In this document: positions 2,799 through 32,189 of the stretch, in pieces
How the letters are laid out: every line of letters begins with the position of its first letter
Numbering within the stretch: the first letter of the stretch is position 1
IMG/VR virus record: IMGVR_UViG_3300049448_000784
Span: 1 to 33,969 of that record
Strand: one strand, 5' to 3'
Length of the DNA: 33,969 bases
Origin: a virus
Translations under genes and position numbers: made by a program
Notes under the pieces: model-generated
Told to the model about the DNA's origin: nothing
The model's database searches: none
What the model saw: the letters and a program-made list of their open reading frames with translations, nothing else

Positions 2799-3304
2799 GC
2801 CGTGCCACCCTCATCGCGGACTCGCTCGTCCGTCGCCTCGAAGCGCAGCTGGCACACCTCGGCGTCGACGTCCGTCTCCATCTGGCGAACGTCCTCGAGA
2901 TGTGCGAACGACTGCCCGGACAGGTCGAGAACCCGCCCGGCCTGCTCGTCACCTGGTGTTCTCGAGAAGCTGACGCTCGCCGCGCGCGTGCGGCCGCCCG
3001 GGCGCAGGACCGCGACCGGTATGCCGAGCTGCAGGTCGAGGTCTACCGCGCTATCGCCTTCAGGCGCTTCACGCCGCGCGAGCTCGCGCGCGTCCTGCTC
3101 CAGGCGACGCGAGAGGGCTACCCCGCCCTCAATCCCCGCACGATCGAAATGCTGCGCTCCATGGGCGATCGCTGGGAAGCGGAGCCGGTGGCGCGCCGGG
3201 ACGCGAGCGAGGGACCCGACAACGCCGGCGCGAGGGATGCGACCGGCCGCGTGAATCATGAATCAGGCACAGGGAGGTCGGCGGATGTTGGTGCTCAGCC
3301 GTAA
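2795..3304 (+). CDS. Hypothetical helical protein next to replication gene
   Basis: A 169-residue protein translated from ATG 2795, overlapping the DUF1376 stop as ATGA, with strong GC bias at third codon positions that supports this frame over competing ones. It is mostly alpha-helical with many Arg and Leu residues ([20 protein letters not shown] at about 9-28). The last 40 residues are low complexity. Its end overlaps the csrA start by 20 bases in another frame. It may be a partner of the DUF1376 protein, by position only. Confidence 0.55.
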
Positions 3305-3503
3305 GAACGGGGAAACCATCATGATCGGCGACGACATCGAGGTGAAGGTCCTCGATCGCGACTACTACGGCAGGGTCAAGCTCGGGATCTCCGCGCCCGA
3401 GGGGCGGACCGTGCATCGGCTCGAGGTCTGGCTCCGCATCCAGGCGGAGAAGGCGGCCGCGGCGCGCCGACTCGTCCCTTGCGCGAAGGATGCGCGGCCG
3501 TGA
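3285..3503 (+). CDS. csrA: Phage-encoded CsrA/RsmA translational regulator
   Basis: A 72-residue CsrA, close to the usual 60-70. The canonical start [20 protein letters not shown] is intact, including RNA-contacting Leu4 and Arg6, followed by [10 protein letters not shown] and the conserved TVHRLEV with the key Arg at position 45. The beta2-beta3 connection (DRDYYGR) is one residue longer than in E. coli CsrA. The start is set by GGGAGG at 3272-3277. CsrA dimers bind GGA motifs in mRNA leaders and block or alter translation. A phage copy could retune host metabolism or act on phage mRNAs. The C-terminal tail (about 60-72) is extra. The stop overlaps the next start as GTGA. Confidence 0.93.
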
Positions 3504-3712
3504 GTCGGATCACGGGCAAGCGCCGGTTCAGGGAATGCACGGTGCGGATCTGCCGGCGCGGCTTCTACGGGGTCGCCGGCCCCTGCCCGGATTGCCGATG
3601 CGGCGCCAGGATCTCCCAGCTCTACTTCCGGCTCCAGGTCGCGCGCGCGGGCGAGGCGGGGACGCGCCGGCGACGCGACCTGATGGTCGAGACGCTCATG
3701 GGGTCCGCATGA
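3500..3712 (+). CDS. Small Cys-rich putative zinc-binding protein
   Basis: A 70-residue basic protein from GTG 3500, coupled to csrA by GTGA; an in-frame ATG at 3479 would add seven residues. It contains CTVRIC and CPDCRCG, an arrangement of four to five cysteines typical of a small zinc ribbon. Rich in Arg throughout, so nucleic-acid binding is plausible. It is the first of three consecutive Cys-rich ORFs. No specific family recognised. Confidence 0.55.
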
Positions 3713-8658: not shown

Positions 8659-9303
8659 ATGAGCAGGATGCGCGTTTCGCGCGCTCGTGGCGCGGCTCGA
8701 ACGAAGCCCAAGCCTGCGCGATCGCGCTCGAAATCCGGTGCCCCGCGTCAACCAGAGCGTCAACCTGGCTGGTTGACGCAGGCGGCCTATGCCCGGCTCC
8801 GCGGCGTCTCGAAGGAGGCGGTGAGCAAGGCGGTCCGCCAGGGCCGGATCCCGGTCGGACCCGGCGGCCGCGTGGACCCCGTCGCGGCCGACACCGCCTG
8901 GGACCGGAACACGTCTCCGCGGCCGCCGGCCGGGCGCGGCGCCGCTCGAGGTGGCCCGAACGGGCTCCCGATCGCGGCCGCAGGGCCCCCCGTAGACCTC
9001 ACGGAGGCCCGGACCATGCACGAATATGCGAAGGCGCAGCTTGCGGAGCTCGAGCTGGGCGAGCGGCAGGGCCAGCTGGTGGCCGTCGCGGACATGCGGG
9101 ACGCCGCCTTCCGGGCTACGCGCTCCGCCCGCGACCTCATCCTGAGTGTCGCGGACCGGCTCGGCGAGGTCCTGGCAGGCGTCAGCGACGCCGGCGAGGT
9201 GCGCTGGCTGCTCCGCGAGGAGCTCGGAAGGGGCCTCGACGAGCTCTCGACCCTCGAACTAGAGCCCGAGGCCGAGGCTCCGGCCGCCGCGGCCGGCGAA
9301 TGA
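8659..9303 (+). CDS. Terminase small subunit (Nu1-like)
   Basis: A 214-residue protein from ATG 8659. Residues 1-38 are a basic, disordered arm. Residues about 39-80 are a winged-HTH of Nu1 type: WLTQAAYARLRGVSKEAVSKAV, then a wing GRIPVGPGGRVDP and DTAWDRNT. A long helical region follows (KAQLAELELGERQGQLVAVADM), matching the usual Nu1-like dimerisation and assembly helices. The protein would recognise phage DNA and recruit the large subunit for packaging. Heptamer repeats lie both upstream and within codons 30-40. The C-terminus is Glu/Ala-rich. It overlaps the next gene as ATGA. Confidence 0.85.
   Translation: MSRMRVSRARGAARTKPKPARSRSKSGAPRQPERQPGWLTQAAYARLRGVSKEAVSKAVRQGRIPVGPGGRVDPVAADTAWDRNTSPRPPAGRGAARGGPNGLPIAAAGPPVDLTEARTMHEYAKAQLAELELGERQGQLVAVADMRDAAFRATRSARDLILSVADRLGEVLAGVSDAGEVRWLLREELGRGLDELSTLELEPEAEAPAAAAGE
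8747..8777. repeat. Heptamer cluster 2 (GTCAACC x2 / GGTTGAC) inside the small terminase gene
   Basis: GTCAACC occurs at 8747-8753 and 8759-8765 and its complement GGTTGAC at 8771-8777, so successive copies start exactly 12 bases apart. They lie in codons for the RQPERQPGWLT segment, just before the DNA-binding domain. Part of the repetition is also visible in the protein, so coding constraint is an alternative cause. Together with cluster 1 it suggests a two-part terminase-binding site. Confidence 0.5.
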
Positions 9304-9572
9304 TCCTCGTCGATCGATGCCGCCCTTGCGGCGCGCCTTGGCCGGGCGGCGTCGCATGCCACCTGATCTCGGATGAGAGCGAGAGCGAGCTGCTCGAGTT
9401 CGCGGCGGGTATCGGAGTCTCGCTCCGGTGGTACCAGGCGCGCGCGACCGTCCCGCACTTCGATCTGGGCCCGCGGCACCGGGCGAAGGCCGTCGCCGGC
9501 GGCGCGCGCGAGGTCGACCGAACCGGAATGGTCGAGGGGATGCACAGATGGCGCTCGAAGAACGCGGGGTGA
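9300..9572 (+). CDS. DUF4031-family small protein
   Basis: A 90-residue protein from ATG 9300 (ATGA overlap with small terminase). It matches the DUF4031 pattern: ACHLISDESESELLEFAAGIG, then VSLRWYQ, HFDLGPRHRAKAVAGGA. Members are small proteins of unknown function, common in phages and actinobacteria. The N-terminal CRPCGAPWPGGVAC adds three cysteines that might bind a metal. The end of this ORF overlaps the large terminase start by 25 bases. Confidence 0.65.
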   Translation: MILVDRCRPCGAPWPGGVACHLISDESESELLEFAAGIGVSLRWYQARATVPHFDLGPRHRAKAVAGGAREVDRTGMVEGMHRWRSKNAG

Positions 9573-11479
9573 GCCGCGCCGAGGCGGAGCTGATGGACGC
9601 CTGGCGCGCCGGCTGGCGCCGGGATCCCGAGCTGACGATCGACGAATGGGCCGATCGGCACCGCGTTCTCTCCGGGGACACCTCGGCGGAGCCCGGCCAG
9701 AGGCGGACCTCTCGCACGCCCTACCTCCGTGAGGTGCTCCGTGAGCTCTCGCCCAGCAGTCCAACCCGCCGGGTCGTGCTCATGTGGGGCGCACAGACGG
9801 GGAAGAGCGAGGGCGGCTTCAACTGGATCGGCTACGTGATCCACCACACGCCCGGCCCGATGATGATGATCCAGCCCACGGTCGAGGTGGCGCACTTCGT
9901 CTCGAAGGAGCGCATCGTCCCGCTCGTCCAGAACACGCCGGCGCTCGCCGAGCGCGTGCTCGAGAACCGGTCGCGCGACGGCAACAATACGATCCTCAAT
10001 AAGCGCTTCCATGGCGGGTTCTTGAAGATCTCCGGCGCCAATTCCGCCGCGAGCCTCCGCTCGACGCCGATCAAGTTCCTCTTCTGCGACGAGATCGACG
10101 CCTATCCGGCTGACGTAGACGGCGAGGGCGACCCCCTGGACCTCGCGGAGGCTCGCTCGACGACTTTCTCGCGCGGGAAGACGCTCATCACCTCGACGCC
10201 AACCATCAAGGACTTCTCCCGGATCGAGAAGGAGTTCGCCCGCGGCGATCAACGGCGCTACTTCGTGCCCTGTCCGCATTGCGGACATTCGGACTGGATC
10301 CGCTGGGCGAACATCGACTATCGGAACGACGACCCGGCGACGGCCTGCCTTCTCTGCAGCAGCTGCGGCGTGCTCATCGAGGAGCGCTACAAGACCCAGA
10401 TGCTCGAGCGCGGGGAGTGGCGGCCGACCGCCGCCGGCGACGGCGAGACCATCAGCTTCCATCTCTCGGGCCTCTACTCGCCGCTCGGCTGGCTCTCATG
10501 GGAGAAGGTCGTCCGCGAATGGCTCGAGGCGAAGAAGGACCCCTCGAAGCTCAAGGTGTTCCTGAACACGCGTCTCGCCGAGACGTGGGAGGAGCGCGCG
10601 GAGTCCATCGAGCCCGACGCGATCTTCGCTCGACGCGAGAGCTACGCCGCCGAGGTCCCGGACGGCGTCGGGATCCTCGTTGCTGCCGTCGACGTCCAGG
10701 CGGACCGGCTCGAATACCAGGTGAAGGGCTACGGCGCTGGCGAGGAGTCGTGGCTCATCAGCTGGGGACAGGTCATCATGGAGCCCGCAGCGCCGGCGAA
10801 GGCATGGCTCGAGCTCGACCAGCTGCTGCAGCAGGACTGGGAGCATGCCGGCGGGCGCAAGGTGCGCATCGAATGCGTCGCGGTGGACTCGGGCTTCAAG
10901 GCCGATGACGTCTACCGGTTCTGCAAGGCGAGGGCCTCGCGCCGGGTGTTTGCAGTCAAGGGCTCGCCGGAGACTGGGAAGCCGCTCGTGGGGCGGCCCA
11001 CGTCGAACAACGCGTTCCGCGCGCGGCTCTACCTGCTCTGCACGGATACCGGAAAGGAGACCGTGCATGCGCGGCTGCGCATCGCCTCGCCCGGCGCCGG
11101 CTACATGCACCTCCCGGCGGAGATTGATCGCGAATATGTCGACCAGCTGACCGCGGAGAAGGTCATCCGGAAGTTCGTGAAGGGCCGCGCGCCGCAGCGC
11201 CAATGGGTGAAGACCCGCGAACGGAACGAGGCACTCGACCTCGAGGTCTACTCCCTGGCGGCGCTCCGAATCGTCCTTGGGCCGCAGCCTGGGCGCGCGC
11301 TCCTGCAGCGCGCTGCCAAGCTATCGGTCAGGACGGGCCGCCAACTCCCCGCCGGCGAGGCGGTCGCGCCTCCTGCGTCGCCGGCGCCAGCTCCCAAGCC
11401 TCCCGTCCCGCCAGCTGTCGGCCGCCGGACGCTGCCGTCGCGGCCGCGACGGGGCTGGGTGCAGGGCTGGAGGCGTTGA
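9548..11479 (+). CDS. Terminase large subunit (GpA family)
   Basis: A 643-residue motor/nuclease of the lambda GpA type, close to the 641 of lambda gpA. ATG 9548 follows GAGGGG at 9535-9540. The ATPase domain shows a Walker A variant WGAQTGKSEG at 80-89, Walker B FLFCDEID at 177-184 and a coupling motif TST near 216. Two Cys pairs, CPHC at 242-245 and CSSC at 270-273, form a zinc-finger insert seen in GpA proteins. The nuclease domain shows AAVDVQADRLEY (Asp382) and VAVDSGF (Asp447). It pumps DNA into the prohead through the portal and cuts it. The last about 60 residues are Pro/Ala-rich linker. The portal gene does not follow, which is unusual. Confidence 0.95.
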   Translation: MALEERGVSRAEAELMDAWRAGWRRDPELTIDEWADRHRVLSGDTSAEPGQRRTSRTPYLREVLRELSPSSPTRRVVLMWGAQTGKSEGGFNWIGYVIHHTPGPMMMIQPTVEVAHFVSKERIVPLVQNTPALAERVLENRSRDGNNTILNKRFHGGFLKISGANSAASLRSTPIKFLFCDEIDAYPADVDGEGDPLDLAEARSTTFSRGKTLITSTPTIKDFSRIEKEFARGDQRRYFVPCPHCGHSDWIRWANIDYRNDDPATACLLCSSCGVLIEERYKTQMLERGEWRPTAAGDGETISFHLSGLYSPLGWLSWEKVVREWLEAKKDPSKLKVFLNTRLAETWEERAESIEPDAIFARRESYAAEVPDGVGILVAAVDVQADRLEYQVKGYGAGEESWLISWGQVIMEPAAPAKAWLELDQLLQQDWEHAGGRKVRIECVAVDSGFKADDVYRFCKARASRRVFAVKGSPETGKPLVGRPTSNNAFRARLYLLCTDTGKETVHARLRIASPGAGYMHLPAEIDREYVDQLTAEKVIRKFVKGRAPQRQWVKTRERNEALDLEVYSLAALRIVLGPQPGRALLQRAAKLSVRTGRQLPAGEAVAPPASPAPAPKPPVPPAVGRRTLPSRPRRGWVQGWRR

Positions 11480-11504
11480 CGCCCCGCCCGCATGGGCCTA
11501 GTTT
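11476..11504 (+). promoter_or_regulatory. Putative sigma70-type promoter (TTGACG-N17-TAGTTT)
   Basis: TTGACG at 11476-11481, a 17-base GC-rich spacer and TAGTTT at 11499-11504 lie over the terminase stop codon, about 28 bases before the next start codon. The only other site in the window with the same TTGACG-N17-CC-TAGNNT layout that I found precedes the integrase. The -10 element matches consensus at only three of six positions, so confidence is moderate. Confidence 0.4.
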
Positions 11505-11531
11505 CTATGCCCCCTGCTCATTGGAGGCCGC

Positions 11532-11870
11532 GTGTCACCCGAGCTTGTCAAGGCCCTGACCGATCTTGTGCTTGCCCTGACTGGACTGGCCAAGGTCACA
11601 GGCAACGGCTGGTTCGCGTTCATCGTACTGGGCTTAGCGGCGCTACTGGTTGGCGTGCCATGGTATCGTGAGCACAAGCGCAACCAGCGAGTCGATATCG
11701 TCATCAAACACAAGGAAGAGGAAGTGCTTCGGCTTGCCGAAGACAACCGCAGGTACCGGGAGGTCTACCTCGCCAAGCTCGGATTCCCGGCCGAGGCGTT
11801 GGCGCAGGACGCTGTAGATTCAAAGTCGGCCAAGGATGAGCCGGCACGGAAGGGGGGCAGGAAGCAATGA
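11532..11870 (+). CDS. Small membrane protein with cytoplasmic coiled coil
   Basis: A 112-residue protein from GTG 11532 with GGAGG 5 bases upstream. Hydrophobic segment at about 27-45 (WFAFIVLGLAALLVGVPWY) is a transmembrane helix. It is followed by charged helix (IKHKEEEVLRLAEDNRRYRE) and a basic tail. Topology recalls holin-associated or spanin-like proteins, but the location after the terminase is not the usual lysis position. Likely co-transcribed with the next gene through an ATGA overlap. Confidence 0.6.
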   Translation: MSPELVKALTDLVLALTGLAKVTGNGWFAFIVLGLAALLVGVPWYREHKRNQRVDIVIKHKEEEVLRLAEDNRRYREVYLAKLGFPAEALAQDAVDSKSAKDEPARKGGRKQ

Positions 11871-12445
11871 TGCCCATCATCACGTGGGGACTGGTAGCCG
11901 CGCTGATCGTCGCGCGCGAGGTCTACCGCTGGCGCCGCGATCGCCAGCTTCGGCACACGCTTGAACTTCTCGAGTGGCGGGAGCGCTTTGCCAAGACGCG
12001 CAGGGACATCGTGCACTTGCTTCATTGTGACCACAGCGCGCCGAGGCCCGGAATCGTCGTGAATATGTATCTCCTTGCTTCCGCGGTGGTGCGGCGGGCG
12101 ACGGACTACGAGACTTTCGCCAGCACTATCGTGCTCGAGGCCATCAAAGAGGTGCGACCGGATGAAGAGCTCGCCGGCCGCGTGAAGCGCGAGATCAAGG
12201 AGCTGACCCCTGAGGGCCGAGAGCTCCTCGCCAAGTTCTCTAGCGATCTGCATCAGCTTCTCAAGCGCTACTCGGTGCTCTATCGCTTCATCGACCTCTT
12301 CGCGCGATCCCTCGCTCGCTTGGGCGTGCGGCCACCCGCCGAGTATTCGCCGCCGCGCCGCAGACCCCTGTGGCCGGAGCTCCAGCAAAAGCGGGCCATG
12401 TATTCGCGGACAGCGCAATGGCGGAGGCTAGCGACGGCGGCCTGA
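11867..12445 (+). CDS. Membrane-anchored helical protein, unknown function
   Basis: A 192-residue protein starting at ATG 11867 inside the previous stop (ATGA). A hydrophobic N-terminal stretch (MMPIITWGLVAALIVAREVY) anchors it. The rest is soluble and helical (IVLEAIKEVRPDEELAGRVK; LLAKFSSDLHQLLKRYSVLY). No family recognised. It is the last + strand gene before a large palindrome and the - strand block, and could be a phage accessory gene. Confidence 0.6.
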   Translation: MMPIITWGLVAALIVAREVYRWRRDRQLRHTLELLEWRERFAKTRRDIVHLLHCDHSAPRPGIVVNMYLLASAVVRRATDYETFASTIVLEAIKEVRPDEELAGRVKREIKELTPEGRELLAKFSSDLHQLLKRYSVLYRFIDLFARSLARLGVRPPAEYSPPRRRPLWPELQQKRAMYSRTAQWRRLATAA

Positions 12446-12465
12446 GCCTCTGCGCCGGCGGTACC

Positions 12466-12503
12466 AACATGAACGGCGGGCCCGCGGGCCCGCCGTTCAT
12501 GTT
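12466..12503. terminator. 38-bp perfect palindrome, probable bidirectional terminator
   Basis: The 38 bases are identical to their reverse complement: arms of 19 bases begin AACATGAACGG and meet at a GC-only centre (GGGCCCG|CGGGCCC). It lies between a + gene ending at 12445 and a - gene ending at 12507, exactly where a shared terminator is expected. There is no U-tract on either side, so efficiency is uncertain. A recombination or protein-binding site is an alternative. Confidence 0.6.
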
Positions 12504-12506
12504 CAG

Positions 12507-12638
12507 CTACTTCTTGCGCGGCTTCACGCGCTCGGTGACGGTCTCGCGCGGATCACGCTTGGCCTCCACCTTGGGCTTGAATTCACCGTCGACCGCGCTG
12601 CGAACGCGCGTTGGCGGTTTTTTCCGATTGGTCGCCAT
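12507..12638 (-). CDS. 43-residue basic protein of a widespread small-protein family
   Basis: A 43-residue protein whose start at 12638 is set by a perfect GGGAGG site 6 bases upstream on the - strand. The core TRVRSAVDGEFKPKVEAKRDPRETVTE matches the common pattern of tiny bacterial and phage proteins with SAV-G-F-x-x-x-A-x-x-x-P-x-x-TV-E, often mislabelled as transporters. Function is unknown. A much longer frame (to 12830) is open but the internal ribosome-binding site and family length support the short form. Confidence 0.7.
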   Translation of the reverse strand: MATNRKKPPTRVRSAVDGEFKPKVEAKRDPRETVTERVKPRKK

Positions 12639-13294
12639 GAGCGACCTCCCTGGAGTAACCTGGCTGCTGATTCGGCAGAATCGCCTTGACGCGCGTCCGC
12701 GACCGAAGCCACTCTGCGCGTAGCGCAACCGGTCGGGCTCGAAGTACTCGAGCCCTGCCAGTGAAGCGTCCTCGGCCCGTTCACCGGTTCCCCTCGCAAA
12801 GAGACTCGGTGGCGGGCCGAACCATTGCACCGCCAGGATTGCTCACCACCATCCTGGAGGCGATCGCGCGATTGAAGCCGCGATTGACGCGTTATCGCAC
12901 CTTCGCGCGTGCGGCCACAAGAGAAAAATTCCCCGCGAGCTGAACTCGGGTGTAGGCTTGGGGGGCAGGGGGGGCGAGCTGAGCTAGGACGGGGCGCCCG
13001 AGGCGGATGCCTCGGGCGCCCCGTCCTAGCTGTCGCGAGCGCCCCGGGCTCGAGCCGGTGCGAACATTCTTGACCTGCGTTAAATACTGGCGAAAGAGGG
13101 ATTCGGAGACGGCCAACGGCCTGGTCGACACGCGGCATCTCGCCTCAGAGCTCGAGCGTCTCGACGTCGAGATCAGGGTCGAGCTCACGCAACAGTTGAT
13201 CCTCGGACCGCTGGAGATCGCGATCGCCGCTCGCCGTCCGTCTGCGAGCGCTCGGCATGCGGCCGTCTATCGCGCAGAAGGGACGGGGCGGGTC
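12639..13294. other. 656-bp region without a convincing gene
   Basis: No ORF here has both a good start and a recognisable product. It holds a short inverted repeat at 12735-12755 (GGGCTCGA, 5-base loop, TCGAGCCC) about 100 bases upstream of the 43-residue gene, and a long hairpin at 12982-13031. A + frame from about 13007 shows coding-like third positions between 13085 and 13260 but runs deep into the antisense of the next gene, so I do not call it. It could be a decayed gene. Confidence 0.4.
12982..13031. repeat. Long perfect hairpin: 23-bp stem, GGAT loop
   Basis: Arms 12982-13004 and 13009-13031 are perfectly complementary around the four-base loop GGAT. The stem is almost entirely GC (inner part GGGGCGCCCGAGGC). 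It lies in a gene-free stretch, about 264 bases beyond the 3' end of the - strand membrane-protein gene. No U-tract follows on either strand; a C-rich run follows on the - strand. It may be a terminator, a stable small RNA element or a protein-binding site. Confidence 0.55.
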
Positions 13295-13867
13295 CTAGAA
13301 CTTGAACTTTCCGCGGGAGCGACGGTGAGCCTCAATGAGAGCGTGGATGGCCAGCGCAATCTCCGCGCCTTTTGCCACATGCAGGATGTGCTCGATCACG
13401 ACGATGGGAATCGTAAATGGAAGCGCGGTTGCGATCACTCCGGCTCCAACGATCTCAATTGCCGTCATTCCAACGATAATCACGACGTCGAGCCCCGCGA
13501 AGGTTTCTTCCGGGATCGTCTTGCCGAAGGACTTGAGTCGAGCTTCTAGCCTCTCAAGCCGCCGTTTGAGCGCAGGTGCGTCCTCTGGAGCTCTGCCCTT
13601 CCCGAAGATCGTCGTGAACCACGAACCGGTGAATGGCCCCCACTCGAAGGCTTCGTCGTATTCGGCGTCTTCAAGGGCTCGTTTAACCTCCTCGCTGAGC
13701 CTCCTTCCCAGTTCGTCGCTCTTCTCAGAATCGCCATCAATGAAGATGCTGATCGGGATGACCCTGCGGAGCGAGAAGTTCGCCGTCGCAGCGTCGAGAC
13801 TGAGTTCGCTGGCTCGAAACAACTGAGCAGCCAACTCGTCGGCAGTAGGAAGGCCATTGTCTGCCAA
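13295..13867 (-). CDS. Membrane protein with N-terminal soluble domain, possible moron/exclusion factor
   Basis: A 190-residue protein. The TTG start at 13867 is decided by AAGGAGG at 13875-13881, 7 bases upstream on the - strand. Residues about 30-90 form a soluble domain: RRVIPISIFIDGDSEKSDEL, then FEWGPFTGSWF. This resembles the domain ending in GSWF/R seen in bacterial conflict-type membrane proteins, but I cannot name it firmly. Residues about 120-165 are hydrophobic (LDVVIIVGMTAIEIVGAGVI and ATALPFTIPIVVIEHILHVA), probably two membrane helices. Its isolated position, non-ATG start and less GC-biased codons suggest an independently transcribed cargo gene. Superinfection exclusion or abortive infection is speculation. 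Confidence 0.65.
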   Translation of the reverse strand: MADNGLPTADELAAQLFRASELSLDAATANFSLRRVIPISIFIDGDSEKSDELGRRLSEEVKRALEDAEYDEAFEWGPFTGSWFTTIFGKGRAPEDAPALKRRLERLEARLKSFGKTIPEETFAGLDVVIIVGMTAIEIVGAGVIATALPFTIPIVVIEHILHVAKGAEIALAIHALIEAHRRSRGKFKF

Positions 13868-14295
13868 GTGAGAGCCTCCTTGAACTGATCACAATCGACC
13901 AGGCCCGCGGCATCGATGCGACGTGGACTCCCGCTTGTGAGCGGAGAGGGGCGCGCGTCAGGCGGACGCCCCCTGCTCCGCCACTATGACGCCGATTCGG
14001 CTTGCTTGCACCAGTCAGCCGCCGATAAGATGCTCGCCGTCCGCGGGCCGCACGGATCTGGGGAGACACGCGCGCCCGAATGTTGGGGCGGCACCATCCC
14101 CCTCGCCCCTGGAAGGCAATCGTCGTCGGCTGCCAGGTCGATCGGCAATCCACGGACAGTGCACCGAGGCCGTCCTTGCACCGCTAGATGGCTTCGGTGT
14201 TTCAACAGTGAAGAGCCCCCGGCAGCTCGCGCCGCCGGGGGCTTCCTGTTTCTCGGCTCTAGCTCAGGCTCCCGGAACAGGAGCCCGGAGGAGGT
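13868..14295. other. 428-bp intergenic region
   Basis: No gene is supported. The left edge holds the leader of the - strand membrane-protein gene. The right part holds a GC-rich hairpin (14214-14243) just past the end of the portal operon. I see no tRNA and no convincing promoter for the membrane-protein gene, although its promoter should lie here. Confidence 0.4.
14214..14243. terminator. Terminator-like hairpin after the portal operon
   Basis: AGCCCCCGGC at 14214-14223 pairs with GCCGGGGGCT at 14234-14243 around a 10-base loop. It lies about 50 bases beyond the last stop of the - strand portal operon, as expected for its terminator. The adjacent T-rich run (TTCCTGTTTCT) is on the + strand side, so it may also work in the other direction. 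Confidence 0.55.
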
Positions 14296-14778
14296 TCAGA
14301 TCGTCGCCAGCGGGATGTACGCGCCTTGTCCGACGCTCTGCATGACGTCCGCGGCATCGGTGGGGTAGAAGACCTCGACGTCCACGACGACTCCCGTGTG
14401 TGGGGTCGTCGCATTGGAGAGGATGCTGCATTGGAAGAAGTCGTGGTAGAACGAGCCATTCGGGTCCAGAGGCGAGAGCGAGAAGGACGCGCCTCCCTTG
14501 TCGATCCGGAAGCCTGCCGCAGAGGGGCGGATCCCGAAGCCCTGCCCCGTGAACGACAGCATGAACGAGCCGTCCGCGGTGTTCCCGACGTTGATGGCGG
14601 GGGGCTGGATCGCGTTATTGACGTCGGTCCCCGAGATCTTCATCACGACCATCCTGGCTCCGCGACAGGGAATGCCGGCCGAGACCCACGTCGTGGCCGC
14701 GGGGAAGTTCTGCGGCCCCTGGAGGCCCGGCACCGAGACGCCGACCTTGATGTTCAAATATTTCTTCGAGACTGGCAT
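14296..14778 (-). CDS. Virion-associated-like protein downstream of portal
   Basis: A 160-residue protein on the - strand. The start at 14778 follows GGGGAGG 5 bases upstream. The sequence is beta-rich with Gly, Ser, Phe and Asn turns (GSFMLSFTGQGFGIRP; SPLDPNGSFYHDFF). It is 32 bases downstream of the portal gene and in the same operon. Its size and beta-rich nature suit a head decoration or accessory capsid protein. No named family recognised. Confidence 0.6.
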   Translation of the reverse strand: MPVSKKYLNIKVGVSVPGLQGPQNFPAATTWVSAGIPCRGARMVVMKISGTDVNNAIQPPAINVGNTADGSFMLSFTGQGFGIRPSAAGFRIDKGGASFSLSPLDPNGSFYHDFFQCSILSNATTPHTGVVVDVEVFYPTDAADVMQSVGQGAYIPLATI

Positions 14779-14810
14779 CGAATCCTCCCCCAAGCGCTCC
14801 CGCGAATCCG

Positions 14811-16511
14811 CTAGATGCGACCCGGCGAGCGCCCTCGTGAACTTCCGGCGGGTGGCCCGCCATTGGCGGAGCCATTCAACCTGCTCTTGATGACGCGTCC
14901 GGCGAGCGCTCGGCTCGCCGTGTCGCCGGCGCCGGCATCAAGTGGCGTGCCTTCGCCCTCGTCAGTCTCATCGCCGCTGCCGGGCTTTGCGGTCGAGAGG
15001 TCGGGAATGTTCGGCGCGCCGCGCAGCGAGAAGTCGAGCGTCAGGCCCAGCTGCTTCGCCATCAACTCATCCGCTGCACGCTCCTCGAACACCTCTTCGA
15101 TATCCTCTCCGCGTTGCGCGAGGACTCGCCGGAGCGACGTCAGACCGAGGAAAAGCTCGAGGTGCGAGGCCTCGACATCCTTCAGGGGATCGACCCAGTC
15201 CCAGCCCCGGCTCACCCATCTGACGGCCTTATAACGCGTCCAATCGGCACTCGCGAGCTGGAGCTCGCCAGAGAGGATGGCGGCGTTGAGCCACCGCTCG
15301 TATACCGGCTGCCGGAAGCTCGAGACCCACCAGTCCTGCAGCATCTCCCAGAGATCGCGCTCAGAAAGAAGCGCCTGGCGCATGCTCGAATAGTTCGCCT
15401 GCGAGTAATCGCCGGAGAGCTGCGCATAGCCGACGCCGAGCCCCGTCGCGATGCGACGCGTGACATCCCGCATGAACTGCTCGTAGGCCGCGTTCGGGGA
15501 ATTCGGCGTCCAGGATTCCACCTTCTCGCCCGGCGCCAGGCGCAGCATCCCGCCTGGGTTCACCTCGAGCTCCGCTGGCGCCAGCGGGTCGTTTGGATCA
15601 GTGGATTGCGCCGGGCCCGCCATGCTCTCGTCGTCCTGCGTGATGAACGCCATCTGGGCCGCGCCCACGCGCGCGTGCACCAGCGCCGCCTCGGCATAGC
15701 CCCCAGCATGCTGAGTGTGGATCAGCACCGGGGCGAACCAGGTGATGCCGCGCATTTGGTTCACGCGCTCGGTGATATAGAGATGGAGCATCTCGCTCGC
15801 ATCGATCCGGATCCGCCGGCGGCCGAGGTAATCCGTCCGGTAGAGGCCGTCCCAGACGTGGTAGGCGACCGGAGCCAGATCCTGATCGACCTCGACGCCG
15901 AGGCGCACCTCGTTCTCGGTGCGGCCATAGGGCAGGTTGTAGGTCTCGTCCAGCAGGTCGGGATCGAACCCCTGGAGCGCGAGCCCGAAGCGATAGTTCG
16001 CACCGATGGGCATGCGGGTCAGCATTTCGCCGTCGCGCGCGGCGGTCTTCAGCTGTAGATGCTCGAATTGGGCGAGCGTCATCCTGCGATCTGCCGTGAC
16101 CGGCCCGCTCGACCAGCGCTCCCAGGCTTCCTCGATCACCTCGTTCGTCTTCTCATCGAGATTGCCACGGGCATCCCTCACCTGCGCCTGGAGCCGCGGC
16201 CCGCGGGCCCCGAGCACGTTCGCCGTCGCGAGGTTCAGGAAGTGCTTGCACATCGGATCGTTCCGCGAGAGGTCGCGGGCGCGCGCGCGCATCACCTTCA
16301 TGTCATAGCGGAGCTCGTCGTCGGGCGACATGCAGCGCGCGAACCAATCCTCGAGCAGCCGGCTGGCCTCGGCGCCCCGGAAGCTCGTATGCAAGCCCGT
16401 CCGGACCTGGCGATCGCCGGCGCCGGCCTTCCGAGCGCGGGGCGCGCGGTACTTGCCGCGGAGGGCGCCCCAGGCGGTCGCGAGGCGCTGTTTCAGAGGG
16501 ACCACGGCCAT
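14811..16511 (-). CDS. Portal protein (lambda family)
   Basis: A 566-residue portal subunit, near the 533 of lambda gpB. The start at 16511 follows GGAAGGGGG on the - strand; longer in-frame starts would enter the upstream gene in another frame. Diagnostic stretches are RARARDLSRNDPMCKHFLNL, DGEMLTRMPIG, EMLHLYITERVNQMRGITWF, GYAQLSGDYSQANYSSMRQA and FRQPVYERWL, all typical of lambda-type portals. Twelve subunits form the ring through which DNA enters the head. The C-terminal 70 residues are Gly/Asp/Ala-rich linker. It is transcribed opposite to terminase and capsid, which is highly unusual. It overlaps the upstream connector gene by 19 bases. Confidence 0.93.
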   Translation of the reverse strand: MAVVPLKQRLATAWGALRGKYRAPRARKAGAGDRQVRTGLHTSFRGAEASRLLEDWFARCMSPDDELRYDMKVMRARARDLSRNDPMCKHFLNLATANVLGARGPRLQAQVRDARGNLDEKTNEVIEEAWERWSSGPVTADRRMTLAQFEHLQLKTAARDGEMLTRMPIGANYRFGLALQGFDPDLLDETYNLPYGRTENEVRLGVEVDQDLAPVAYHVWDGLYRTDYLGRRRIRIDASEMLHLYITERVNQMRGITWFAPVLIHTQHAGGYAEAALVHARVGAAQMAFITQDDESMAGPAQSTDPNDPLAPAELEVNPGGMLRLAPGEKVESWTPNSPNAAYEQFMRDVTRRIATGLGVGYAQLSGDYSQANYSSMRQALLSERDLWEMLQDWWVSSFRQPVYERWLNAAILSGELQLASADWTRYKAVRWVSRGWDWVDPLKDVEASHLELFLGLTSLRRVLAQRGEDIEEVFEERAADELMAKQLGLTLDFSLRGAPNIPDLSTAKPGSGDETDEGEGTPLDAGAGDTASRALAGRVIKSRLNGSANGGPPAGSSRGRSPGRI

Positions 16512-17068
16512 GGCCACGTCCCCCTTCCGCGCGCCGTGCCCGTGAACCGCGTCAGCAGCTGCTGGCCGATCCGGCCCGTCCGCTGCCTCTGGATCCGGGT
16601 GACGAGCGCGTCGCGGAACTTGATCGCATCCTTCCGGGTCTCCGTCGTCATGCCGCGGCCATGGAGCTGGTAGCTCACCATCGCGGAGCCCGCGCTCGCG
16701 AGGATCGCCGCCTCGACGACGACGAGCGCCTTCTCCTCGAACGTCTGCATGTCGCCCGGGCCCACGACTGCGAGATTCGGGGTTATCGAGGTGACGCCGG
16801 CGCCGACGTCGTAGATCTCGGGGCTCTTCGCGACGCGCTCGAGCCAGCGATACATCCCGGGCGGCAGCGTCGCCGTCTGCGTCGCGAAGATCGTGACCGT
16901 GAAGCCGGCCCCGTTGGCCGCCGCGGGAATCGAGATGTAGCCCACGCCGGCGAGCAGCAGCGTCAGCGTCCAGCCAGCGGTCTGCGGGTAGTCCGAGAAC
17001 GACCGCGTATAGACGACGGTCGAGCCGCTCGAGAAGGCGTCCGGGATCTGTGTGAGGACGGTGGCCAC
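16493..17068 (-). CDS. Head-to-tail connector-like protein upstream of portal
   Basis: A 191-residue protein from GTG 17068 on the - strand, with a weak ribosome-binding site. The N-terminal two thirds are beta-rich with the pattern STVVYTRSFSDYPQTAGWTL, which I recognise from proteins encoded immediately upstream of lambda-type portal genes. The C-terminal third is basic and helical (IKFRDALVTRIQRQRTGRIG), similar in position to gpW-like adaptors. It probably belongs to the head-tail junction. It is the first gene of the inverted portal operon, downstream of a double palindrome. Confidence 0.6.
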   Translation of the reverse strand: MATVLTQIPDAFSSGSTVVYTRSFSDYPQTAGWTLTLLLAGVGYISIPAAANGAGFTVTIFATQTATLPPGMYRWLERVAKSPEIYDVGAGVTSITPNLAVVGPGDMQTFEEKALVVVEAAILASAGSAMVSYQLHGRGMTTETRKDAIKFRDALVTRIQRQRTGRIGQQLLTRFTGTARGRGTWPWPWSL

Positions 17069-17088
17069 GCGCCCGAGGATGCACAGCC

Positions 17089-17120
17089 GTTCCCCTCGGG
17101 AACACTGAACTAATAGTTCA
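17089..17120. promoter_or_regulatory. Double palindrome in the divergent portal/capsid control region
   Basis: Two 15-base palindromes sit 2 bases apart between the divergent starts at 17068 (-) and 17169 (+): GTTCCC-CTC-GGGAAC at 17089-17103 and TGAACTA-A-TAGTTCA at 17106-17120. The second is an AT-rich island in GC-rich DNA. The layout is typical of operators for a dimeric repressor or activator controlling both operons. No convincing -35/-10 pair is visible, so the promoters may need an activator. Confidence 0.5.
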
Positions 17121-17168
17121 ATAGCTTCGCACTTGACTCGCTGCGCATGGTCGTGTCGTGAGGCCGGG

Positions 17169-19277
17169 ATGCTGGACCCCGGCGGGAATCAGGCGACCAT
17201 CGACGACAGGGAGTCCGACGAGCCCATGGGCCTTCCGAAGGCGCTGCCCAAGCAATACGTCTCCTTCGAGCTGATCGAATGCACGCGCCGCATGCGCGCG
17301 GCCGGCGATGGCGCCCCTGGCGACGCCGGCGCCACGGCCGATGCGGCGGATCAGGGCCTCACGTTCGACCTCGTGATCAGCACCGAGCGCCCGACCGAGA
17401 AGTGGTACGGCATCGAGACGCTCTCGCATGAGAAGAACGCGATCGACATGTCATATGCGAAGAATGGGCTATCGCTTCTCCTCGAGCACGGGGCCTGCGA
17501 CGCCGACATGCTTGCCTCCAACCTGGTCGATCCCGAGCTCCACGTCGGTATCGTCGACGAGGTGACCATCGGAGGAGACCGGAAGCTCCATGGGGTCGCC
17601 CGCTTCTCGCGCGTCGGCAGCGCCGTCGTCGCCGCGAGCCAGGTCGAGGACCGGACGCGGCGGTTCGTCTCCGTCGGCTATGTGCCGCGGAAGTTCAAGG
17701 TCACGAAGCAGGCGCAGGCCCCTGGAGAGAAGGACGAGATCCTCGTCACGAAGTGGACGCCGGTCGAGGTCTCGCTGGTCAGCGTGCCGGCAGATCCCAA
17801 CGCGCAAGTCCGCTCGATCGGGGGCCAGGAGTTCCCGATCGAGGTCGAAACCGATCAACCCGCAGGGGAGGAACCACCGATGCTGCAGAACATCAAGTTG
17901 AGTCCCGACGGTGGCAGCGGCGGTGGCGCCGCGGCCGCGCCGGCCCCCGCGGGCAAAGGCGCCGAGATCACGCTCACCGAGGCGGAGGTCCAGCACCGCT
18001 CGCTCTCGGCCGTCCAGGCGCGCAACAAGGAGGTCGCGGAGATCGCGACCCTCTGCCGCCGAAACAGGATCGAGGAGAAGGTCGAAACCGACTACATCCA
18101 GAGTGGCAAGTCGCTCCAGGAGGTCGGGCTCGACATCCTCCAGCGGAGGAAGAGCGAGCCGCTCCCGACCCCGGCGGCGGAGTTCGTCGACGGGCTGCCG
18201 GCGAAGGACCGCAAGCGCTATTCGGTCGGCCGCGCGCTCGACATGCTGGTCCGGCGAACGCTCGGCCAGGCGGCCTTCGACGGCATCGAGGGTGAGGTCC
18301 ACGCGCACCTCGAGCGCCGCGCCAAGGAAGCCGGCATCCAGAGCCACGGCTCGGGCGTGTTCCTGCCGATGTCGCTCGGCGCGGACCTCGAACGGCGCAC
18401 GATGGCGACGAACATCGCCACCAAGGGCTCCGAGTTCGTGTTCGACCAGCCGGGCGAGCTGATCGAGTTCCTGCGCAACCAGGCGGTCGTCTTCCGCATG
18501 GGCGCGCGGATGCTGACCGACCTGACCGGCCCGGTGACGTTCCCGAAGCAGCAGGGCGACGTCACCGTCAGCTGGGTGGGGGAGAACCCGGCCTCGGCGG
18601 TCGCCGCGTCGGATGTCGCGACCGGCGCCGTCATGCTGACCCAGAAGACCATGCAGGGCACCTGCAAGATCTCCCGCCAGCTCCTCGCCCAGTCGAACAT
18701 CGACCACGAGGGGATGATCCGCGAGTCATTCGCGCAGGCCCACGGTCTCGCATTCGATCGCGCGGCGCTCCATGGCCTGGGCTCCAGCTCGCAGCCCACC
18801 GGCATCTACTCGGCCCCCGACGTCCTCACGACGACGATGGCGAACGTGCTCCCGACGTGGCAGAAGATCACGGACATGATCGGGCAGGTCGGGAGCGCCA
18901 ACGCGCTCGCCGGCACGCTCGGGTTCGTGACCACGATGGGCTTCGGAGCCCGCTTCCTGTCGGTGCTGCAGCAGAGCGCGGCCGGCCTGCCGTTCATCTG
19001 GACCGGTCCGCTGCAGGACGGGAAGATCGGTGGCTACCGCGCCATCGCCAGCACCCAGGCCCTGGCCAACCTCGGAGCCGGTGCGAACGAGCACTGCTTC
19101 ATCTTCGGCAACTGGGCCGACATGATCGCCGGTCTCTTCGGCGGCATCGAGGTCATCGCGGACCCGTTCACGTCGGCCACTTCCGGGCTGGTGAACTTCA
19201 CCAGCTTCCAGATGGGCGACATCGTCCTCCGCCGCGGCCAGTCCTTCTCCAAGGCCACCCTGGCGCAGCTCGCCTAA
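17169..19277 (+). CDS. Prohead protease-major capsid fusion (S78 protease + HK97 fold)
   Basis: A 702-residue fusion. ATG 17169 follows GAGG 6 bases upstream. Residues about 30-215 are an HK97-type S78 prohead protease, with the nucleophile-pair motifs LLLEHG (His107) and RRFVSVGY (Ser168) and the family ending [17 protein letters not shown]. Residues about 238-400 form an Ala/Gly and coiled delta/scaffold-like segment. From about residue 405 the HK97 capsid fold follows ([48 protein letters not shown]). Many phages keep protease and capsid as separate genes; here both are in one frame. An in-frame ATG at 17880 with a strong ribosome-binding site may also produce free capsid precursor. Confidence 0.93.
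17866..17882 (+). promoter_or_regulatory. Internal ribosome-binding site and in-frame ATG within the protease-capsid gene
   Basis: GGGAGGA at about 17866-17872 is followed about 7 bases later by ATG 17880-17882, codon 238 of the fusion, exactly at the boundary between the protease and the linker. Initiation here would give a 465-residue scaffold-capsid protein lacking protease, which would allow far more capsid than protease, as lambda achieves with C and Nu3. Confidence 0.5.
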
Positions 19278-31886: not shown

Positions 31887-32189
31887 TTGGCACGTCGAGA
31901 GCCACGACGCTGGCGCACGCCTTTCGGCCGCTGGGTCCAGTCCTATGGCGTGAATCGCCTCTGCTTCGCGCTGATCCGCGCGGGGCAGCCGGTGACACCT
32001 CATGCGATATATGGCTGGGTCGGCGGGCGGACCTCGCCGCGGCCCGGTCGTGCCGCGGCGGTCGTGCGACTCAGTCATGGCGCCGTGCGCCTCGAACATC
32101 TGTACCGTCGCGCCGTCGATGGTTCAATGAGCGCTGAGTCGAAGACCGCCCGCACGGCTCCATTCCCCGATCTTCTTTCGCGAAGCTAG
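31887..32189 (+). CDS. HTH transcriptional regulator (YdaS/Cro-like)
   Basis: A 100-residue protein starting at TTG 31887 with GGAGA at about 31872-31876; GTG 31950 is a shorter option. Residues about 12-68 form a helix-turn-helix of YdaS/Cro type: SYGVNRLCFALIRAGQPVTP, HAIYGWVGGRTSPRPGRA, VVRLSHGAVRLEHLYRR. Such proteins act as phage antirepressor or Cro-like regulators or recruit to tRNA-like targets. The last about 66 bases overlap, on the opposite strand, the end of the next gene, which could cause antisense interference. Confidence 0.65.
   Translation: MARREPRRWRTPFGRWVQSYGVNRLCFALIRAGQPVTPHAIYGWVGGRTSPRPGRAAAVVRLSHGAVRLEHLYRRAVDGSMSAESKTARTAPFPDLLSRS

Follow-up and report, generated by a model that had tools for sequence, protein, structure and literature searches.

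An inverted connector-portal block and a symmetric junction element in a lineage of lambda-portal phages

We analyzed a virus record of 33,969 bp (IMGVR_UViG_3300049448_000784, a single metagenomic contig of linear type; the whole stretch is called the window here), in which the connector and portal genes lie on the strand opposite to the terminase and capsid genes. Our main reading, to which we assign a probability of roughly 0.7 from sequence comparison, is that an old, heritable inversion left two divergent head operons that would be controlled together by a dimeric regulator bound to a short dyad between them. In one lineage of lambda-portal phages, the inversion would thus have divided the head operon: the leftward operon carries connector and portal plus lineage-specific genes, the rightward one carries the protease-capsid and tail genes, and TerS-TerL stays on the capsid strand. 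A preliminary description of this DNA had treated the flip as a local oddity and missed the dyad; our results point instead to an architecture that is old and has a putative regulatory element of its own.

On the + strand, the terminase small subunit TerS (8659..9303; phrog_57, 4e-34) and the gpA-type large subunit TerL (9548..11479, ORF open from 9428; PF05876, 9e-90; PF20454, 2e-88) are followed by two small genes that are not flipped (11532-11870 and 11867-12445). The - strand then carries variable cargo (12507..13867), which differs among relatives, the distal gene of the portal operon, which encodes a 165-aa (165/160-aa) protein (14296..14793), a lambda-family portal protein (14811..16511, likely ATG at 16511; PF05136, 2e-88) and a head-tail connector (16493..17068, GTG start at 17068; phrog_5774, 6e-24). 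A protease-capsid fusion (17169..19277, +; phrog_617, 8e-79; PF05065, 1e-25) is the first gene of the rightward head-tail operon, and the tail and lysis genes share its strand. These family matches bear out the coordinates and strands that the preliminary description had given for TerS-TerL, the 165-aa/portal/connector block and the protease-capsid gene. Its further proposal, that turning the block over restores the usual order, also held: the result is TerS-TerL-connector-portal-capsid, as in co-directional relatives such as L007. The head module combines a gpA-type TerL (PF05876, PF20454) with a lambda-family portal (PF05136) and departs from the co-directional lambda-type order in having connector and portal on the opposite strand. 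Homologues of the 165-aa protein were found in L005, L006, L123 and L124; its predicted model was mostly beta and of low confidence (pLDDT 60), and a structure search with it gave no match at E ≤ 0.001.

Scans with portal, connector and TerL yielded about 200 related loci, whose orientation was scored by profile; a capsid-protein scan of viral contigs with short capsid patterns found no relatives. We called a locus inverted when connector-portal was flipped against TerL and/or capsid. By this definition, 139 of the 163 scored relatives were co-directional and 24 distinct loci, the window included, were inverted. A DNA-pattern scan with the dyad of the large inverted subclade added seven contigs, for about 31 inverted contigs altogether. 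The flipped block is hence present in about 30 contigs besides the window; these derive from numerous metagenomes and MAGs, and portal identity falls to about 37%. The inverted set includes L005 and L006 as well as L002 (TerL 53% identical) and L123-L125, which come from three metagenomes. Inverted MAG contigs were labelled Krumholzibacteriia, Verrucomicrobia, Planctomycetota, Fibrobacter, Eisenbacteria and Microbacteriaceae, labels that may mislead for phage contigs. In L115 and L116, TerL lies about 27 kb away from the portal on one contig, which would fit the same circular order opened elsewhere. One MAG (G006) holds two distinct inverted portal loci, L118 and L119. In the L124 record (G013:C1:3017-4945), a TAG stop interrupts the TerL frame, which is open in the near-identical L123.

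The window is a single metagenomic contig, and the preliminary description had raised the possibility of an assembly error or a phase-variable invertible segment. Both now appear highly improbable. The same flipped junctions recur in independent contigs, and the orientation is fixed across all inverted relatives (about 30 contigs). A search for inverted repeats at the two block junctions returned longest matches at the level expected by chance from shuffled sequences. Moreover, the dyad was present as a single copy in each locus searched; it was thus rejected as a repeated operator or recombination pair, and therefore cannot be a pair of crossover sites. On present evidence, the flip is neither an assembly error nor a phase-variable segment.

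An inversion from a co-directional ancestor is well supported: co-directional loci make up 139 of the 163 relatives, and the inverted set nests within them, with co-directional relatives on its flanks. Quick trees were built for portal, capsid and TerL. The portal tree placed 20 inverted and six co-directional rows in one group (98%), requiring two changes, and an AU test did not reject a single inverted clade (p-AU 0.354). A single branch of the capsid tree (95%) separated the inverted rows from the others; for TerL, one change sufficed, with a weak support of 43. The simplest reading of these trees would be a single old inversion, perhaps plus one reversal. Furthermore, L005 and L006 have portals only 43-45% identical to that of the window despite TerL identities of 91-92%. 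Because of this discrepancy (93% for TerL against 42-45% for portal in L006), the flipped block seems also to have been exchanged between relatives, or to have evolved much faster than TerL.

At the other end of the block, TerL and the portal operon converge. TerL and portal were 2-8 kb apart in the inverted loci measured (n = 9, near-copies included; median 3987 bp), against a median of 52.5 bp in co-directional ones (n = 126). This convergent end is a cargo site. The preliminary description had suggested that the cargo was perhaps turned over together with the block. This was not borne out, as the TerL-portal cargo differs among inverted relatives, even where TerL is about 91-93% identical (L005 and L006); for the same reason, the cargo was probably inserted separately from the block inversion. 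Window cargo ORFs at 12507-12830 (-, likely start 12635) and 13295-13867 (-, a putative membrane protein) match no known family. The two small genes 3' of TerL are kept in L006 (65% and 78%) and replaced in L005. The convergent junction itself bears a perfect 38-bp palindrome (12466..12503, no strand), a terminator-like stem without a T run (RNA fold z -6.8 on one strand and -5.3 on the other), with a counterpart at L005:4222. Between the two cargo ORFs lies a perfect 23-bp inverted repeat with a 4-nt loop (12982-13031; RNA fold z -8.5).

In other inverted loci, the cargo resembled known families. The TerL-portal gap of L005 encodes an NYN-domain protein (2960-3697, -) that PADLOC assigned to the candidate defence family HEC-09 (2.9e-39). 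RadC-like JAB proteins, whose genes lie at the convergent junction on the same strand as TerL (L002:13745-14305, L123:6417-6920, L113 and L152), occur in three inverted lineages (L123/L124, L002/L113 and L152). A sigma-factor-like gene (L002:11596-12342, +) lies directly 3' of the portal in the flipped operon of L002. Elsewhere in the window, 3258-3503 encodes a CsrA-like regulator, which is also present in L006.

The dyad lies in the connector|capsid intergenic region of nearly every inverted lineage and is mostly AT-rich. In the window it reads TGAACTAATAGTTCA (17106..17120, centre 17113, no strand, single copy), its centre lying exactly 45 bp from the start of the connector gene, with the capsid ATG 56 bp away. 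Different forms were found in L005/L006 (AGCTATTGAACTTAAAGTTCAATAGCT), L113 (CATTCTAGTAATACTAGAATG), the large subclade (ACCAATCTAAATGACATTTAGATTGGT) and further lineages. Wherever the dyad is clear (17 loci, a few of which have extra in-frame starts nearby), a connector start codon follows its centre at a distance of exactly 45 bp, and only one inverted lineage lacks this arrangement. The distance to the capsid start is fixed in one part of the inverted clade only, in a mirror 45/46 arrangement. Scanning with the large-subclade pattern retrieved 10 IMG/VR contigs, all 10 with the dyad at the connector|capsid junction, the connector ATG at +45 and the capsid ATG at +46.

At least 9 of 11 complementary pairs were found in 22 of 24 inverted loci versus 2 of 139 co-directional ones. 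When compared with 200 shuffles each, most inverted loci outscored all or nearly all of them, and in several loci of 16-21 kb the dyad was the sole palindrome of such strength. The window dyad (7-1-7, 8 of 11 pairs, matched by 11 of 200 shuffles) is one of the weakest; taken alone it is weak, and its assignment depends on its homologous position. The possibility that the dyad is a general feature of the portal superclade was rejected, given its absence near connector, portal and capsid in co-directional sisters. It was also absent at the connector-start position in the 41-kb L157 record and in the searched parts of L017 and L114. The inverted locus L130 has only a degenerate dyad, which counts against a shared-dyad model. 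Overall, these comparisons strongly suggest a regulatory role for the element.

The way the arms vary suits a dimeric DNA-binding protein. They differ between lineages, with an outer ATT...AAT core that recurs across them, and are invariant within the large subclade, where the spacers vary. The contigs retrieved by pattern cannot count for this invariance; those found by protein show it independently. As the arms are lineage-specific, the regulator would have to change alongside them. An RNA hairpin in the connector (and capsid) leader, acting on translation or stability, would naturally explain an exact spacing to the start codon and a symmetry retained while the sequence shifts between lineages. 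We nevertheless regard it as improbable: the invariant arms of the large subclade lack pair-wise compensatory changes, the outer core is common to lineages, and the predicted RNA fold at the window dyad is ordinary (z -1.3 and -0.1). A bidirectional promoter, with a symmetric core read by RNA polymerase both ways, seems quite improbable. The dyad centre is AT-rich in most lineages, and two reports describe pseudo-symmetric bidirectional promoters in bacteria (PMC12825309, PMC10268837). However, the dyad of L131 is G+C-rich, the centre varies freely elsewhere, and the arms reach 13-16 bp, far longer than a -10 element requires.

We favour a regulator that binds DNA and propose that a single dimeric one would govern both head operons from the dyad, so that portal and capsid would still be made in step after the flip. 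A Shine-Dalgarno-like motif was absent upstream of the connector in most inverted loci, including the window. Together with the fixed spacing, this suggests that the connector message may be leaderless or nearly so, with its start codon at or near the transcription start.

Whether such a protein would activate or repress is a further issue. The dyad could be the operator of a repressor silencing both head operons in lysogeny, a reading that we find rather unlikely. The window encodes an integrase, a symmetric site between divergent promoters would be equally suitable for a repressor, and the candidate helix-turn-helix (HTH) protein described below is weakly YdaS/Cro-like. Conversely, there is a single site per genome, whereas repressors usually act on early promoters too. 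In addition, a sigma-70 promoter scan beside the dyad gave nothing above shuffles, a slightly better fit to an activator-dependent promoter. By analogy with the divergent pP/pO promoters of phage P2, we consider an activator more likely than a repressor. In its most specific form, our proposal is that a fast-evolving phage activator fires both head halves from one dyad, whose distance is exactly 45 bp to the start of a leaderless connector message and, in some lineages, 46 bp to that of the capsid gene. This previously undescribed element would have arisen with the inversion, convergently with P2. We offer this version tentatively, with less than even confidence.

As a possible binder, we considered a small YdaS/Cro-like protein (31887..32189, +; weak PF15943 match, E 0.09, below the cut-off). 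Every inverted genome with enough sequence (seven) encoded it; of the partial inverted records, three had none and one gave a weak hit. The protein also occurs in three co-directional relatives, in whose searched sequence no such dyad was found. Its occurrence was therefore rejected as proof of dyad binding, and it stands as an unproven candidate.

The closest architectural parallel is P2 (Peduovirus), where a portal operon (P-Q) and a scaffold-capsid operon (O-N-M-L) diverge from one short region, as in the window. The P2 record has a single annotated activator site (3057-3087), almost midway between the transcription starts at 3016 and 3127. The spacing is about 55 bp from this site to each transcription start in P2, compared with 45 bp from dyad to start codon in the window lineage. 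The gene arrangement also differs: in P2, the large terminase P lies beside the portal Q and TerS (M) among the capsid genes, whereas in the window the flip affects connector-portal alone, leaving both TerS and TerL on the strand of the capsid gene. The window's portal and TerL belong to lambda families (PF05136, PF05876/PF20454), and P2 genes were compared by annotation only. Lambda-type head modules (L007 and, by single-gene hits, VP882, phiHAP-1 and Synechococcus S-CBS phages) have homologous TerL, connector, portal and capsid families. They are, however, co-directional where scored: TerL almost abuts connector or portal (median 52.5 bp), and the connector is not preceded by a dyad. Phage Mu offers a dimeric activator, C, of the kind proposed here; it binds late promoters at a position that overlaps the -35 element or lies upstream of it (PMC4461284). 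Unlike the window lineage, with one site between two divergent operons, Mu has several separate C-activated promoters per genome. Our literature search, which covered open-licence papers and did not extend to preprints, found no report of a flipped connector-portal block.

Tailed phages are widely considered to have an almost fixed order of head genes. In the inverted lineage, whose contigs are assigned to several bacterial phyla, this order appears to have been disrupted on one or a few occasions, and the new order has persisted since, in convergence with P2. Phage cargo, including candidate defence genes, may be sought where TerL and portal converge. Since the break is accompanied by a conserved, symmetric element placed a precise number of bases from a start codon, it becomes possible to ask how portal and capsid dosage may be matched after the head operon is split.
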